Under the pieces are notes generated by a model. It was not told the DNA's origin. It was given only the letters and a program-made list of their open reading frames with translations, and ran no database searches. Of a DNA stretch of 64,000 bases, positions 53,980 through 60,774 are shown piece by piece. This DNA comes from Halorientalis persicus (GTDB taxonomy: Archaea; Halobacteriota; Halobacteria; Halobacteriales; Haloarculaceae), in NCBI RefSeq assembly GCF_900110215.1, contig NZ_FOCX01000002.1:124001-188000 (forward strand), given 5' to 3'. Position numbers and translations under genes: made by a program. Position 1 is the first letter of the stretch, and each line of letters begins with the position of its first letter.

Positions 53980-55224
53980 CTACATCCCCTCCGCAGCTTC
54001 GAATACACTCATATCCACGTCCACGTCCAGATCCCGCTGCTCGGTCTCCTCGATGACCGTTTCGAGGTCCTTGTCGCCCCGGCCCGAGACGTTTATCACT
54101 GTGACGTCACCGACGGCATCGGGGTTCTCGTGCAGGTACCCGAAGGCGTGGGCCGTCTCCAGTGCGGGGATGATCCCCTCCTCCTGTGAGAGGCGGTGGA
54201 ACGCCTCCAGCGCGGCGTCGTCGTCGACGTTCGCGGGCGTGACCCGACCCTCGTCGACGAGGTGTGCCAGTTCCGGGCCGACGCCGGCGTAGTCCAGCCC
54301 CGCCGAGACGCTGTGGGACTCCATGATCTGGCCGTCCGAGTCCTGCAGGAGTTTGGTGCGCGCGCCGTGGAGGACGCCCTCGTCCCCGGTCGACAGCGTG
54401 GCCGAGTTGGGTGCGACGCCCTCCTGTTCGTTCACGGTCAGCGAGGAGCCGCCGGCCTCGACGGCCAGCAGGTCCACGTCCGCGTCGTCGACGAACTCGG
54501 CGAACGACCCCATCGTGTTCGACCCGCCGCCGGCGCAGGCGACCACGGAGTCGGGGAGACGACCCGCGTGGTCCCGAATCTGCTCGCGGGCTTCCTCGGA
54601 GATTACCGACTGGAAGTCACGGACCATCGCGGGGAACGGTGCGGGCCCGACGATCGACCCGATGACGTAGTGGGTGGTCTCGACGGTCGTCGCCCAGTCA
54701 CGCATCGTCTCACTGATGGCCTCCTTGAGCGTCCCCCGGCCCACTGTGACGGGGTTGACCTCGGCCCCGTTGAGCCGCATCCGGAACACGTTGGGCCGCT
54801 GGCGGTTGATATCGGTCCGGCCCATGTAGATCTCACAGGGCATATCCAGATGGGCGGCGGCCATCGCCGTCGCGGTACCGTGCTGACCGGCCCCGGTCTC
54901 GGCGATGATCCGTTCTTTGCCCATGTACTTGGCCAGCAGGACCTGCCCGAGCGCGTTGTTCAGCTTGTGTGCGCCGCCGTGGAGCAGGTCCTCGCGCTTG
55001 AGATAGACCGCGGTATCGTACGCTTCCGAGAGCTGGTCCGCGTACTGCAGCGGTGTCGGTCGCCCGCCGAAGTCGCGCAGTCGCTGCCGGAACTCGTCCA
55101 TGAACCCGTCCTCGTTGTCCAGCACGTACCGCTCGTAGGCGTCCGTCAGTTCCTCGATGGCCGGCATCAACACCTCGGGCACGTACTGTCCGCCGTACTG
55201 TCCGAATTTTACTGTCTCGCTCAT
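53980..55224 (-). CDS. trpB: tryptophan synthase beta subunit
   Basis: Pyridoxal-phosphate enzyme joining indole and serine. 414 residues: [18 protein letters not shown]-Lys in [26 protein letters not shown], phosphate cup region [10 protein letters not shown], and [11 protein letters not shown]. TrpB1-type with the usual COMM-domain region. It overlaps trpC by 4 bases (ATGA) and abuts trpA, so it is part of a trpCBA operon. Confidence 0.96.
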
Positions 55225-56000
55225 GTCTCTGTCTCGGTTTGTGTCAGTCGCGACGTCTTCTCCTTGACCGATCCGTCCATGATCGCACTGCCGATCAACA
55301 GCCCGTCGGCCCCGGCGGCGCGCATCCGGGCCACGTCCTCGGCCGTCTCGATCCCGCTCTCGGCGAGCACGGTCACGTCGTCTGGCACGTCGGGCGCGAC
55401 CCGCTCGAACGTGTCCAGATCGACGTTCAACTGCGCGAGATCGCGGTTGTTCACACCCACGATATCGGCCCCGGCGTCAAGTGCCTGCTGGAGTTCCGTG
55501 CCGTCGTGGACCTCCACGAGGACCTGAAAGCCCCGATCCCGGGCCGCCGCCAGCAGGTCGTCCAGATCGTCCGTGTCGTCTTCCTGCAGGAACCGGACGA
55601 TCAACAGGACCACGTCGGCCGCCACGGTGTCGAGTTGGGCCTCGCGGACGACGAAGTCCTTCCGCAGGACCGGCACGTCGACGGCCGCACGGATGCGCCG
55701 CAGGTTCTCCGGTGACCCGCCGAAGTGGTCAGGTTCGGTCAGCACCGACAGCGCCGCCGCGCCGCCGGCGACCATCTCCTCGGCGAGCGCGACGGGATCG
55801 TCCGTCCGCTCGCCGTCGGTCGTCGGACTCGTCGGTTTCACCTCCGCGATCACGGGCACCCTGCCGTCGGCCTCGGCGGCCGCGAACGCGGCGGGCAACG
55901 ACCGCGTGTCGACCGACAGCCGCTCGTCGCCCCCGCCCCGCTCGCGTGCGGCCGCGAGGATCGACTTCACCGCTGGCGCAATCTCTCCACTAGCGTCCAT
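55221..56000 (-). CDS. trpC: indole-3-glycerol-phosphate synthase
   Basis: 259 residues, (beta/alpha)8. [14 protein letters not shown] contains the first catalytic Lys; [14 protein letters not shown] the second; [16 protein letters not shown] and [13 protein letters not shown] the substrate-binding strands; [12 protein letters not shown] the phosphate loop. Makes the substrate for TrpA. First gene of trpCBA; the anthranilate genes are not in this window. Confidence 0.95.
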
Positions 56001-56091: not shown

Positions 56092-56760
56092 ATGACGGGC
56101 AGACGAGGGTTCCTCCGGAGGCTGGCACTCCTCGGGGTCGCTGGCGCGGCCGGCTGTCTCGGTGACGAGGGCGGTGACAGGGAGAGCGGTAGCGACGGCG
56201 ACACGACGCCGACGACGGTGGGGCCGGGCGAAACCGGGAGTGGGTTCACGGGACCGGACGAGTCGGACGAGGAGCGGTCACTCCCGTCGGCACTCCGGGT
56301 CGTCTCGGCGGTCGGGACCAACGTCGCCCAGCGCCGGATCGGGACGGTCGAGGTGACGGTCGCGAAGGCCGACTGGGTGGAAGAGGTCGATCTGACAGGC
56401 GTCACCGCCACGTGGACCGTCCCCGGCGAGAGTTACGAACTAGCCGCGGCCACGACCGACGCCGACGCCGACGGCTACTTCGGAATCGAGCCAGCCAGGA
56501 GCACGAGCGCGGACGCGACGCTGCAGACGACCCACGAACGCCACCGGCTGGTGTTCGATCTCGGGGACGACGACGAGGAGATCGACGACTGGCACCGACG
56601 GCTGGAGACAGACAGCACGCACTTCGGCGAGGTCGTGCGTGTCGACGACGTGATCGGCCTCCGGCTCACGACCGCCGGCGGATCGACGACGGACGCCAGA
56701 CTCCTCGCACCGACCGAGGTGAACCGGATCGAGGGCACCGTCGAGTTGGGCGTCGACTGA
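56092..56760 (+). CDS. Tat lipoprotein with archaellin-like domain, copy 1
   Basis: 222 residues. Twin-Arg signal RRGFLRRLALLGVAGAAGC with lipidated C22, an acidic/Thr linker (to about 65), then a beta domain: LRVVSAVGTNVAQRRIGTVE, DLTGVTATW, DGYFGIEPARS, HRLVFDL, VIGLRLTTAGGSTTDARL. Segment order and pattern parallel the C-terminal domain of haloarchaeal archaellins, without their N-terminal helix. It is clearly a paralogue of the next gene. Surface-anchored. Confidence 0.75.
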   Translation: MTGRRGFLRRLALLGVAGAAGCLGDEGGDRESGSDGDTTPTTVGPGETGSGFTGPDESDEERSLPSALRVVSAVGTNVAQRRIGTVEVTVAKADWVEEVDLTGVTATWTVPGESYELAAATTDADADGYFGIEPARSTSADATLQTTHERHRLVFDLGDDDEEIDDWHRRLETDSTHFGEVVRVDDVIGLRLTTAGGSTTDARLLAPTEVNRIEGTVELGVD

Positions 56761-56924
56761 TACCGTCGGACGGCGTATCTCGCGAGAGTTCGTCGAAGGC
56801 CCCGGGCGAACGGGTGCTTCCTGCAACGGCCGTCCAGTGTTCACGAGCGCCCGTCGAGTAGCTGGGGTTTCGAATCTCGTCACGGTACGGATCTTTAGGA
56901 CCTGGAGACATCTCATCGCTGTCC

Positions 56925-57581
56925 ATGTATCAGCGACGGACGGTCCTGCGGGCCGGCGTCACCGCCACAGCCCTGGCGGTGGCTGGCTGTACCAGTCAGG
57001 ACGACGCGACCGATGCGACCAGCGACGGGACCGACGACGACGGCGTCGACGAGACCGACGACGCCGCTGGAACCGACTCGCCCGAGGAAAACACCGACAC
57101 GGACGAGCCGACCGAGACCGCGACGGACGGCGACCCAGAGTCGGTGGCTCGTGTCAGGGTGATCTCGTCCGTCGGCCTCGTCGCGGATGGGGCGATCAGC
57201 GCCGTCGAACTCGTGGTCGCACCCACTCCAGGGGCCGGGCCGGCCGACCTGCGGCGGACGACGGTCCAGTGGGTCGACGAGCGCGGGTCCTACGACCTCG
57301 CCGCGGCGTCGAGTGACACGACGGCCGACGGCACCTTTCGGATCACGCCGATCAAGGACGCTGACGACTCCGCACCCGTCCTGAACGCCGACGACGACCG
57401 GATGCAGCTGTCGATGGATCTCGGGGCGGCCGACGAGGTGTCCGGCGTCGAGGGGTTCGGTGAACCGCTCCAGCCTGGAGCCACCGCCACGCTCCAGCTC
57501 ACGACAGCCGCTGGCGCGACCTCGACCGTCCGGCTCACGGTCCCGGAGACCCTCGCCGGTGAACGGGCAGTCACCCTGTAG
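56925..57581 (+). CDS. Tat lipoprotein with archaellin-like domain, copy 2
   Basis: 218 residues. Signal MYQRRTVLRAGVTATALAVAGC (lipidated C22) and an extreme Asp/Thr linker. The beta domain from about residue 73 includes VRVISSVGLVADGAISAVEL, DLRRTTVQWVDERGSYDLAA, DGTFRITPIKDADDS, NADDDRMQLSMDL, PGATATLQLTTAAGATSTVR and the ending VPETLAGERAVTL. This ending is what haloarchaeal archaellins have. It has its own TATA (TTTAGG near 56894). Confidence 0.78.
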   Translation: MYQRRTVLRAGVTATALAVAGCTSQDDATDATSDGTDDDGVDETDDAAGTDSPEENTDTDEPTETATDGDPESVARVRVISSVGLVADGAISAVELVVAPTPGAGPADLRRTTVQWVDERGSYDLAAASSDTTADGTFRITPIKDADDSAPVLNADDDRMQLSMDLGAADEVSGVEGFGEPLQPGATATLQLTTAAGATSTVRLTVPETLAGERAVTL

Positions 57582-57616: not shown

Positions 57617-58078
57617 ATGAGTGACGTTGCGGGCATCTACGCGCACGAATCGTCGTATCTCGACCGCTACGTGCAGGTCGGGATCGCACAGGGTCGAGTC
57701 ATCTCCGTCTCGTTCCCCGAGACGCCCGACGAGGGTGCCGAGGCCGACCACGACCTCCTGAACCGGATCGACGCCTACCTCGACGGCGTCGAGGAGACCT
57801 TCGAGGACGTGCAGGTCGCGTTGACGGTCCCGACCGACCAGCGCAAGATTCTCGAATCCGTGCGCGAGATTCCGTACGGCCAGGATTCCTCGGTCGCGCA
57901 ACTCGTGCGGATGACACCCGGACTGGACGACGGGAGCGACGACGACATCCGAGCAGTGCGAGAAGCGCTCACCGAGAATCCCGCACCCCTGCTCATCCCC
58001 GACCACCGCGTCCGCGACGGCCCCGGCGCGACCCCGCCCGCCATCGTCGACAAACTCCGGTCGATCGAAGGGATCTGA
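57617..58078 (+). CDS. MGMT-like DNA-binding protein lacking the acceptor cysteine
   Basis: 153 residues, methyltransferase/ATL superfamily C-terminal domain: REIPYGQDSSVAQLVRMTPGL, then LLIPDHRVRDGPG. In O6-alkylguanine transferases this motif is IPCHRV; here the acceptor Cys is Asp129. It may act like alkyltransferase-like proteins, binding lesions to direct other repair. Nearby genes do not clarify the job. Confidence 0.8.
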   Translation: MSDVAGIYAHESSYLDRYVQVGIAQGRVISVSFPETPDEGAEADHDLLNRIDAYLDGVEETFEDVQVALTVPTDQRKILESVREIPYGQDSSVAQLVRMTPGLDDGSDDDIRAVREALTENPAPLLIPDHRVRDGPGATPPAIVDKLRSIEGI

Positions 58079-58167: not shown

Positions 58168-59064
58168 ATGGTGGAGAGAGACGTACCGCGGCGATCGGTA
58201 CTTCGCGGCGTCGCAGCGGGTGGGGGAGTGGTCGCGGTCTCGGGGTCGGCGTCGGCCTCGGGGTCGTCGCTGACCTTCGAGACACACACGGAGATCACGT
58301 TCCGGGCCGTCGTGGACGCGGTGCTCCCGGAGACGCCGGAACTGGCCGAGCCACTGGGGGCCGAACACGTGCCCGGTGGGCTAGCTGTCGGCCTCGACGA
58401 GTTCCTGATCACGTACGCGAACGACCTGTTCACGTTCGGCCTGCCCTACATCGGCGAGGTCGGGAACATCCCTATCGCGGGGCCGGTGGCGGCGGTGCTG
58501 GACCTGGCCGCGAAGGAGTTGCTCGACCGCGGCGACAACGAGGACGACCCCAGCGTCGACCGACCGCTGGCGCTGCTGGAGGCCGACGACACCTCGGCCT
58601 GGGTCGTCCGCTTTGCCGCCGGCACGTTCTCGAAGCTATCGCGGCGCGACCGATTGCGCGCCATCGGTCTGCTCGACGGCTACGAACTGGAGCTCTCACC
58701 CGTCTCGGGGTTCCTGTTCGAGGCCGACGCCGGCCTCGTCGGGCAACTGGTGGTCGGCTTCGCCGAGGTCATCTACTACAGCGAGTGGCAGGGCTACGAC
58801 GAGTTCACCCAGCCGCCGAGCCAGCGCGCGCACCCGAACGATCCCGACGCCGTCCAGAGCTGGCGACAGACCGGCTACCCCGGATTCGCCGACGGCTACG
58901 CGGCCCTCCGGGGTTACGTCGACAAGCCCGATAGTCCGCTGGGCGGCGGTGACGTCTGGAAAGATCTCGACGGCGACGTGCGCATCGCCCGCGACTCGGG
59001 GCAGTTCCGGGAGAACGACTACGACACCAGCGGCTACGAGGAACCGTACCCGGAGGGCGCGTAG
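58168..59064 (+). CDS. Tat-exported small subunit of a GMC-type dehydrogenase
   Basis: 298 residues. Signal PRRSVLRGVAAGGGVVAVSG with twin Arg, no lipobox Cys. The mature domain has features of gluconate 2-dehydrogenase subunit 3 (FETHTEITFRAVVDAVLPE, near VRFAAGTFSKLSRRDRLRAI, VIYYSEWQGYDEFTQPPSQRA). It may escort the cofactor-loaded catalytic subunit through Tat. The stop (TAG) directly abuts the next ATG. Confidence 0.8.
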   Translation: MVERDVPRRSVLRGVAAGGGVVAVSGSASASGSSLTFETHTEITFRAVVDAVLPETPELAEPLGAEHVPGGLAVGLDEFLITYANDLFTFGLPYIGEVGNIPIAGPVAAVLDLAAKELLDRGDNEDDPSVDRPLALLEADDTSAWVVRFAAGTFSKLSRRDRLRAIGLLDGYELELSPVSGFLFEADAGLVGQLVVGFAEVIYYSEWQGYDEFTQPPSQRAHPNDPDAVQSWRQTGYPGFADGYAALRGYVDKPDSPLGGGDVWKDLDGDVRIARDSGQFRENDYDTSGYEEPYPEGA

Positions 59065-60774
59065 ATGGTCGCGAACGAGTACGACGCCGTGATCGTCGGT
59101 GCCGGCGGCGACGGCCCCGTCGCGGCCTGGAAACTCGCTGAAGCCGGCCTCTCCGTGCTGGTGCTGGAGGCCGGTCCGTTCCACGGCAACGAGCAGTGGC
59201 CCAACCCGCACGAAGATTCCGGCGGCGAGGCCTCCTCCTCGGTCGAGGACCTCAGCGGCGAGTTGCTCGACGAGCAGTTCACCACCCGCGAGTTCGAGAT
59301 GGTGAACAAGCTCGTCTTCGGCCCCGCCGACCACGAGCGGGGGTTTTACTTCCGGAAGTTCCCCGGCGACGGCGCGATCTTGCAGTGTTCGGGCGTCGGC
59401 GGCACCACCCTGCACTACACCGGCAACCACCCGCGGGCCTACCCCGCGTCCATCGACGAGCAGGGCCACTGGCCCATCGACTACGCCGACCTCGTGCCCT
59501 ACTACCAGGAAATCGAGGAGATGTGCGAGGTCGCGCCCGCGCCCGTGACCGCCAAGGAGGAGCTGTTCTTCCAGGGTGCGGACGCCGCCGGCTGGGACCT
59601 GCTGGACGTGAAAAACGTCACCGAACCCGGCTACCGGCCCCAGCCAAACGCGATCAAACAGCCCGACGAGAAACTCCACGTCGACGGGGACTACGACGGC
59701 GACTTCACGTATCCCGAGGTCGAGGGCGACACGCTCGCGCTCGGGAACATCGCCGGCAACCCCCACCCGCGGGGCGCGCCGTTCGAGGAGAAAGCCAAAC
59801 GAGCCAGCAACGTCAGCTTCGTCCCGCCGGCCCTGCGCACCGGGAACGTCACGATCCGACCCAACGCCTTCGTCACCGACATCGAGACCGACACCTGGTT
59901 CGGCGACGACCCCTCGGCGACCGGTGTCGAGTTCCGCGACACGTGGTCCGGCGAGACCGAATCGGTCGACGCCGAGGTGGTCGTGCTCGCCGCTGGTGCC
60001 ATCGAGACCCCGCGACTCTGGAAGAACGCCGACCTCCCGGAGAACGACTGGGTCGGGAGCGGCATGACCATCCACTTCGGCGACAACGTGATGGGCCTGT
60101 TCGACGGCGACGACCTGGCGGGCCGCCTCGGGAAGGCCACCGTCGACCAGCACCAGGGCCAGGACATCGCCGCCCGCTTCGACTACCCCGGGATCGGGAT
60201 GCTCCAGACCGTCGGCACCACGCCCGGCCTCGGCGCGATCCTGGGCTTCGGCGCGAGCGCGTCCGGGTTCACCTTCCAGAACGACACTGCCGATGCTCCC
60301 TGGGACACGATGGGGCGACTCGCCGGCGGCCGGCTGAAGGAACTGCTATCGGGGTACCGCCGGATGCTCCAGTTGCTCGTCGTCTCCGACGATCGGCCGC
60401 ACGAGCGCAACGGCGTCACGGTCGTTCCAGGGGTGTCCGACGAGAACGGCTCGATCCCGCTGGTGAACTACGAACCCAGCGAGGGCGACCAGCAACGCCG
60501 CGACCGTCTCGCCGAGATCGGCGCGGAGATCCTGCGCGAGGCCGGCGCGTCCCACGTCCACCGCTCGGACTCGCCCCCGACCGCCCTCCACGTCCAGAGT
60601 ACGATGCGGATGGGAAAAGTCGTCGATACGGCGTGTGAGGCCTACGACGTGGACCGACTGTTCGTCGCCGACCACAGCGCGCTGGCCAACTCGGTCGGTG
60701 GCGTCAATCCGACGAATACGGGGCAGGCCCTGGCCGCCCGGACCGCGGAGAAGATCGTCGAACGCTACTTCTAG
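59065..60774 (+). CDS. GMC-family FAD-dependent dehydrogenase
   Basis: 569 residues. FAD Rossmann YDAVIVGAGGDGPVAAWKLA, then ILQCSGVGGTTLHYTGNHPRAYP, VVVLAAGAIETPRLWKN and the catalytic C-terminus FVADHSALANSVGGVNPTNT with the His-Asn pair. Oxidises an alcohol, such as a sugar or polyol, passing electrons to a carrier. It lacks a signal, so it is probably co-exported with the Tat subunit. No cytochrome c gene follows, which is unusual. Confidence 0.9.
   Translation: MVANEYDAVIVGAGGDGPVAAWKLAEAGLSVLVLEAGPFHGNEQWPNPHEDSGGEASSSVEDLSGELLDEQFTTREFEMVNKLVFGPADHERGFYFRKFPGDGAILQCSGVGGTTLHYTGNHPRAYPASIDEQGHWPIDYADLVPYYQEIEEMCEVAPAPVTAKEELFFQGADAAGWDLLDVKNVTEPGYRPQPNAIKQPDEKLHVDGDYDGDFTYPEVEGDTLALGNIAGNPHPRGAPFEEKAKRASNVSFVPPALRTGNVTIRPNAFVTDIETDTWFGDDPSATGVEFRDTWSGETESVDAEVVVLAAGAIETPRLWKNADLPENDWVGSGMTIHFGDNVMGLFDGDDLAGRLGKATVDQHQGQDIAARFDYPGIGMLQTVGTTPGLGAILGFGASASGFTFQNDTADAPWDTMGRLAGGRLKELLSGYRRMLQLLVVSDDRPHERNGVTVVPGVSDENGSIPLVNYEPSEGDQQRRDRLAEIGAEILREAGASHVHRSDSPPTALHVQSTMRMGKVVDTACEAYDVDRLFVADHSALANSVGGVNPTNTGQALAARTAEKIVERYF

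Follow-up and report, generated by a model that had tools for sequence, protein, structure and literature searches.

Analysis of a 64,000-nucleotide stretch of the Halorientalis persicus genome (contig NZ_FOCX01000002.1; hereafter the window) revealed two genes in tandem, LIPO1 and LIPO2, each encoding a putative lipoprotein with an archaellin beta domain (Table 1). They lie between a divergent neighbour, which we take from its sequence to be trpC, and an MGMT-type gene that starts 35 bases past LIPO2. Two genes after the MGMT-type gene (window positions 58168-60774), presumably coding for a Tat-type protein and a GMC-type oxidoreductase, are arranged in the same way in the Halorientalis genome G075. 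Searches with tblastn revealed neither of them in the stretches of G078, G080, G077 and G079, and in the G081 stretch detected a GMC match of 50 residues only and no match for the Tat-type protein.

Table 1. Genes and protein features around the tandem pair (window positions).
Feature	Position	Strand	Basis
trpC, divergent neighbour	55221..56000	-	syntenic in 6/7 lipoprotein-bearing Halorientalis genomes, own included
LIPO1, putative lipoprotein with archaellin beta domain, 222 aa	56092..56760	+	PF01917, structure, profile comparison
LIPO1 Tat-like leader up to lipobox Cys22 (GAAGC)	56092..56157	+	read by eye
LIPO1 acidic/Thr linker, residues 23-62	56158..56277	+	composition
LIPO1 archaellin beta domain, residues 63-222	56278..56757	+	AlphaFold pLDDT 79.6, archaellin Z 17.6
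LIPO2, putative lipoprotein with archaellin beta domain, 218 aa	56925..57581	+	PF01917, structure
LIPO2 Tat-like leader up to lipobox Cys22 (VAGC)	56925..56990	+	read by eye
LIPO2 acidic/Thr linker, residues 23-72	56991..57140	+	composition
LIPO2 archaellin beta domain, residues 73-218	57141..57578	+	AlphaFold pLDDT 92.5, archaellin Z 20.6
MGMT-type DNA-binding domain gene, downstream of LIPO2	57617..58078	+	PF01035

The original prediction described both proteins as Tat lipoproteins with an Asp/Thr linker and without a class III signal, and our analysis agrees with it on these points. The leaders (MTGRRGFLRRLALLGVAGAAGC and MYQRRTVLRAGVTATALAVAGC), judged by eye without a signal-peptide program, each have a twin arginine, then a hydrophobic segment and, at residue 22, the Cys of a lipobox; the RR pair, the FL and the AGC of the lipobox are invariant across five LIPO1 orthologues. 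The linkers comprise about 40-50 residues rich in D/E and T/S, and in LIPO1 the linker is the least conserved part. The NCBIfam model of the class III N-terminus (TIGR02537) matched neither LIPO1 nor LIPO2 up to E 1 and gave 41.7 bits (cut-off 20) on the genome's own archaellin.

In their RR motif, hydrophobic stretch, lipobox and acidic linker the two proteins resemble haloarchaeal Tat lipoproteins. The sections of PMC2945643 considered here give Tat as the route of 78-87% of predicted haloarchaeal lipoproteins, but do not mention a type with an archaellin domain. Neither window protein contains a glycosylation sequon; lost glycosylation sites were dropped as a mark of leaving the filament because the genome's own archaellin is also without a sequon.

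Homology and predicted fold of the domains

Sequence blocks in the order of the archaellin beta domain, on which the original prediction was based, were all found in LIPO2. LIPO1 contains counterparts of them (RIGTVEVTV, VTATWTV, DGYFGIEP, LRLTTAGGSTT) but lacks the VPETLAG end, and the two proteins match each other at 36% over 141 aligned residues. The proposed profile search identified PF01917 (Arch_flagellin) as the sole Pfam family matched by both proteins, with a specific score. LIPO2 (E 1.8e-6, 28.8 bits) aligned with profile positions 50-161 of 162 and LIPO1 (E 0.0041, 17.9 bits) with positions 47-136, both matches being confined to the beta part of the profile. As proteins neither reaches the curated cut-off of 29.5 bits; in the genome search LIPO2 exceeded it (29.7) only with its neighbours in frame. 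Residues 64-218 of LIPO2 match the genome's own archaellin at 45% (E 2.8e-22). Among PDB sequences LIPO2 detected two solved flagellins (E 6.7e-10 and 7.1e-7) and the archaellin 9eq7 (E 0.0031), and LIPO1 gave no match up to E 1. Judged from sequence, the resemblance to archaellins is beyond chance. Of 41 columns conserved in archaellins, 37 are kept in a Halorientalis marina relative, 27 in LIPO2 and 17 in LIPO1, which is a graded series.

AlphaFold models, with one weak loop in the LIPO1 domain, showed the archaellin beta-sandwich for both proteins, so the proposed structural comparison returned the expected fold and not a different one. The best Foldseek match was the Halobacterium archaellin for LIPO2 (E 6.2e-12) as well as for LIPO1 (E 6.5e-9). 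Superposition on this archaellin aligned 134 residues of LIPO2 with an rmsd of 1.8 and 138 residues of LIPO1 with an rmsd of 3.0 (Z scores in Table 1), compared with Z 10.2-11.2 for ArlF/ArlG and, for the best matches outside archaellins, stator proteins and pili, Z 7.7 (LIPO2) and 6.9 (LIPO1). Since true archaellins were present in the alignments supplied to AlphaFold, the models depend in part on sequence homology, and the fold result leans on it. Comparison of a LIPO1-only profile (5 orthologues) with an archaellin-only profile (12 archaellins), which is independent of these archaellin rows, gave a probability of 99.3% (E 7e-21) and, together with the predicted structures, makes the homology firm. 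We regard it as almost certain that the putative lipoproteins LIPO1 and LIPO2 each carry an archaellin domain.

Both proteins thus share the beta-sandwich and its strand order with archaellins (ArlA/ArlB; PF01917; Halobacterium salinarum archaellum 9eq7), but they lack the class III signal and the filament-core helix, carry a lipobox leader and linker instead, and are encoded outside the arl cluster. The ordinary archaellin, ArlF (168 bits) and ArlG (211 bits) of the genome are encoded together on another contig (C82), and the ArlF and ArlG models (NF052590 and NF052591) gave no match to LIPO1 or LIPO2 up to E 1. Given these ordinary copies and the failure of TIGR02537 and of the ArlF and ArlG models to match, the lipoproteins are by sequence neither filament subunits nor stators. 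A second archaellin gene of the genome (G000:C33:39858-40814) lies in a 403-residue open frame, in which a long insertion splits the PF01917 match into profile positions 1-61 and 64-161.

Conservation in Halorientalis and recurrence in other genomes

In seven of eight Halorientalis genomes, H. persicus included, one or two such lipoproteins adjoin the MGMT-type gene, and in six of these seven trpC flanks them on the opposite side; the stretch of G079 that was examined revealed no trp gene. In G076 trpC and the MGMT-type gene are less than 100 bases apart with nothing between them. This genome has archaella genes and no such lipoprotein at the site, so the lipoprotein is not needed for the archaellum. 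LIPO1 orthologues were found in four other Halorientalis genomes. G080 and G075 have LIPO1 only, and the LIPO2 copy of G081 (L069:10089-10732), which matches in two reading frames, may be broken. The suggested inspection of orthologue neighbourhoods gave no link to the archaellum: the locus lies by trpC and the MGMT-like gene, outside the archaellum cluster, and no motility gene was found at it. The trp genes and the MGMT-type gene are conserved around the site, as are genes that we take to encode a CPBP protease and LonB. These neighbours point to no common function, and the neighbourhood was discarded as a functional clue.

Between H. persicus and G078, trpC showed 92% identity, the MGMT-type protein 93%, LIPO1 74% and LIPO2 58%. 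Pairwise dN/dS was 0.23-0.47 for the LIPO1 domain (10 pairs, five species), 0.28 for the LIPO2 domain (the one pair available, two species) and 0.11-0.21 for trpC, and dN reached 0.11-0.35 in LIPO1 domains versus 0.05-0.11 in trpC. LIPO1 and LIPO2 are real genes under purifying selection that evolve faster than their neighbours. The dS of LIPO2 in the H. persicus/G078 pair is 0.78, with neighbouring genes at less than half of that (0.30-0.32), which hints that alleles may have been exchanged at LIPO2 alone.

To place the pair among related proteins we used 187 distinct archaellin-domain ORFs, which are chosen matches and not a census. A class III-type N-terminus was recognised by pattern in 158; of the other 29, eight were judged by eye to be truncated, frame-shifted or variant archaellins and were excluded. 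This leaves 21, of which 11 are proteins of the Halorientalis locus and 10 come from elsewhere. The latter take several forms. A lipoprotein of G004 has a tandem pair of archaellin domains, lipobox proteins of G079 (539 aa) and G102 (358 aa) have another region ahead of the domain, and longer proteins with a membrane stretch are found in G070 (two) and G071 (one). G159, from another family of the order, has a Tat-type lipoprotein of the same plan as the window proteins. The proteins of G141, G223 and G215 start with a plain N-terminal helix and may be degenerate archaellins, not transplants. The break points differ between these proteins, as seen from the first profile position covered by the PF01917 match: 22 in the G079 fusion, where the last part of the archaellin helix region is retained (LNTAGFLQTEAEETGEQSHEQVTNRLQV), 21 in the G071 protein, 26 in one G070 protein, 34-38 in three Halorientalis lipoproteins, 41 in G102 and 47-50 in LIPO1/LIPO2.

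Several further arrangements were observed. In G070 (L082:7662-9035 and L081:8840-11269) the archaellin domain is joined via a membrane stretch to a zinc-ribbon or Gln/Pro-rich region, and these fusions are possibly transmembrane proteins with the archaellin head outside. Four tandem archaellins of G002 (L076:7178-11063), nearly identical at their ends but variable over a stretch that separates helix and beta domain, are likely a cassette of filament variants. The archaellin of a Halobacteriales MAG (QS_4_69_31; L099:994-1790) is split over two frames by a frame-shift or assembly error.

In a tree built by a quick method from 154 columns of 84 domains, with SH-aLRT support values, the two G004 domains grouped with the archaellins of the same genome (92). 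The G079 lipoprotein and fusion fell into a starred group (95) that otherwise consists of Halorientalis archaellins, and one G070 fusion into a starred group (98) of archaellins, its own genus included; the placement of G102, G159, G141, G223 and G215 is unsure because of long branches. A single clade of all 22 anchored domains was rejected (p-AU 0.00016), whereas one of the 11 Halorientalis lipoprotein domains was not (p-AU 0.064). The archaellin label required nine changes on the tree, three of them forced by starred branches. Taken together, the rejected single clade, the groupings and the forced changes indicate that the domain was detached more than once. What is new here is that the anchored arrangement recurs and arose more than once.

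Two possible signs of a tie to the archaellum were discarded. LIPO2 scored 253 with the archaellin of its own genome versus 314 with that of another genus and thus does not track a filament partner. A full-length archaellin is present in 14 of 15 genomes with anchored domains; this co-occurrence is weak evidence and does not discriminate, as archaellins are common in the family (101 of 146 genomes).

Possible functions of the anchored domains

The reading that we prefer, with a probability of about 0.5, is that the domains were detached from archaellins and now serve, within the S-layer zone, as binding domains that are tethered to the membrane and do not polymerise; in function ArlF/ArlG would be their nearest counterparts. 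LIPO1 and LIPO2 would then be paralogues of archaellins in which the class III signal and the filament-core helix gave way to a Tat/lipobox leader followed by a flexible linker rich in acidic residues. Once exported and cleaved, they would be lipid-anchored at the outer face of the membrane, and the 40-50 residue tether would hold the archaellin beta-sandwich in the S-layer zone. Without a filament-core helix they would be unable to enter the filament core, and their inherited polar faces may dock, in the manner of ArlF/ArlG, on a partner at the surface, for which the S-layer and the archaellum at its exit from the cell are the likeliest candidates.

ArlF and ArlG are described, in the parts of PMC8667602 considered here, as products of archaellin duplication that no longer belong to the filament; those of Sulfolobus acidocaldarius bind to the S-layer and to one another. 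Like LIPO1 and LIPO2 they are archaellin-fold domains recruited off the filament and extracytoplasmic. However, they have an N-terminal transmembrane helix of their own in place of a lipobox, the window proteins are nearer to archaellin, and the genome has a separate ordinary ArlF and ArlG. According to the portions of PMC11239922 used, the globular domain of an archaellin touches six neighbours, chiefly through polar contacts, so the fold can dock.

A docking role of LIPO1 and LIPO2 near the S-layer or archaellum is proposed tentatively, as a motility link is absent at the locus, most archaellin-conserved residues are lost in LIPO1, G076 has archaella genes without the lipoprotein at the site, and LIPO2 is not closest to the archaellin of its own genome. 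About as likely as a strict archaellum role is that of a general adhesin or recognition protein apart from the archaellum, in which the stable, salt-proof sandwich would be reused for cell-cell, surface or ligand contact. The high dN of the LIPO1 domain relative to trpC, the gain or loss of the gene at a single site from species to species, the fusion of archaellin domains to unrelated membrane proteins and the retention of just 17 of 41 archaellin-conserved columns in LIPO1 are consistent with such a protein, but we detected no match to a known adhesin, and nearly all genomes bearing an anchored domain have archaellins.

Turnover and quicker evolution than in neighbouring genes might also be expected of a decoy or receptor mimic, a tethered near-copy of the outer archaellin surface that would bind archaellum-using viruses or toxins off the filament or point of entry. 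This is improbable: PADLOC, PHROGs and phage records gave no match, no defence genes were noticed adjoining the pair, and pairwise counts revealed dN/dS below 1 and no sign of positive selection. Plasmid records gave two weak matches, one of them annotated as an archaellin/type IV pilin protein. Even less probable is that LIPO1 and LIPO2 are decaying, functionless archaellin copies that acquired a leader by accident. The two-frame match of LIPO2 in G081, the presence of LIPO1 only in G080 and G075 and the absence of both in G076 would fit decay, but purifying selection on LIPO1 (five species) and LIPO2 (two), the lack of variation in leader, Cys and domain core across LIPO1 orthologues and the recurrence across several lineages argue against it.

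A further reading, in which the outer domain of archaellins acts as a docking module that can be moved between proteins and that haloarchaea have repeatedly cut from their own archaellins and fused to lipoproteins and membrane proteins, appears unlikely to us. If true, the fused proteins would be placed at the archaellum base, on the filament or on the S-layer as tethered collars, brakes or sensors, and they would form a so far undescribed class of archaellum-associated proteins.

We found no description of a lipid-anchored archaellin domain in the open-licence literature searched. ArlF and ArlG illustrate that duplicated archaellins can turn into stator parts; here the domain seems to have come away anew on several occasions, now onto a lipid or membrane anchor. 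The series from 37 to 17 of 41 retained columns offers natural material on the change from filament subunit to surface protein, and it carries a warning that not every archaellin match in a haloarchaeal genome is a filament subunit.
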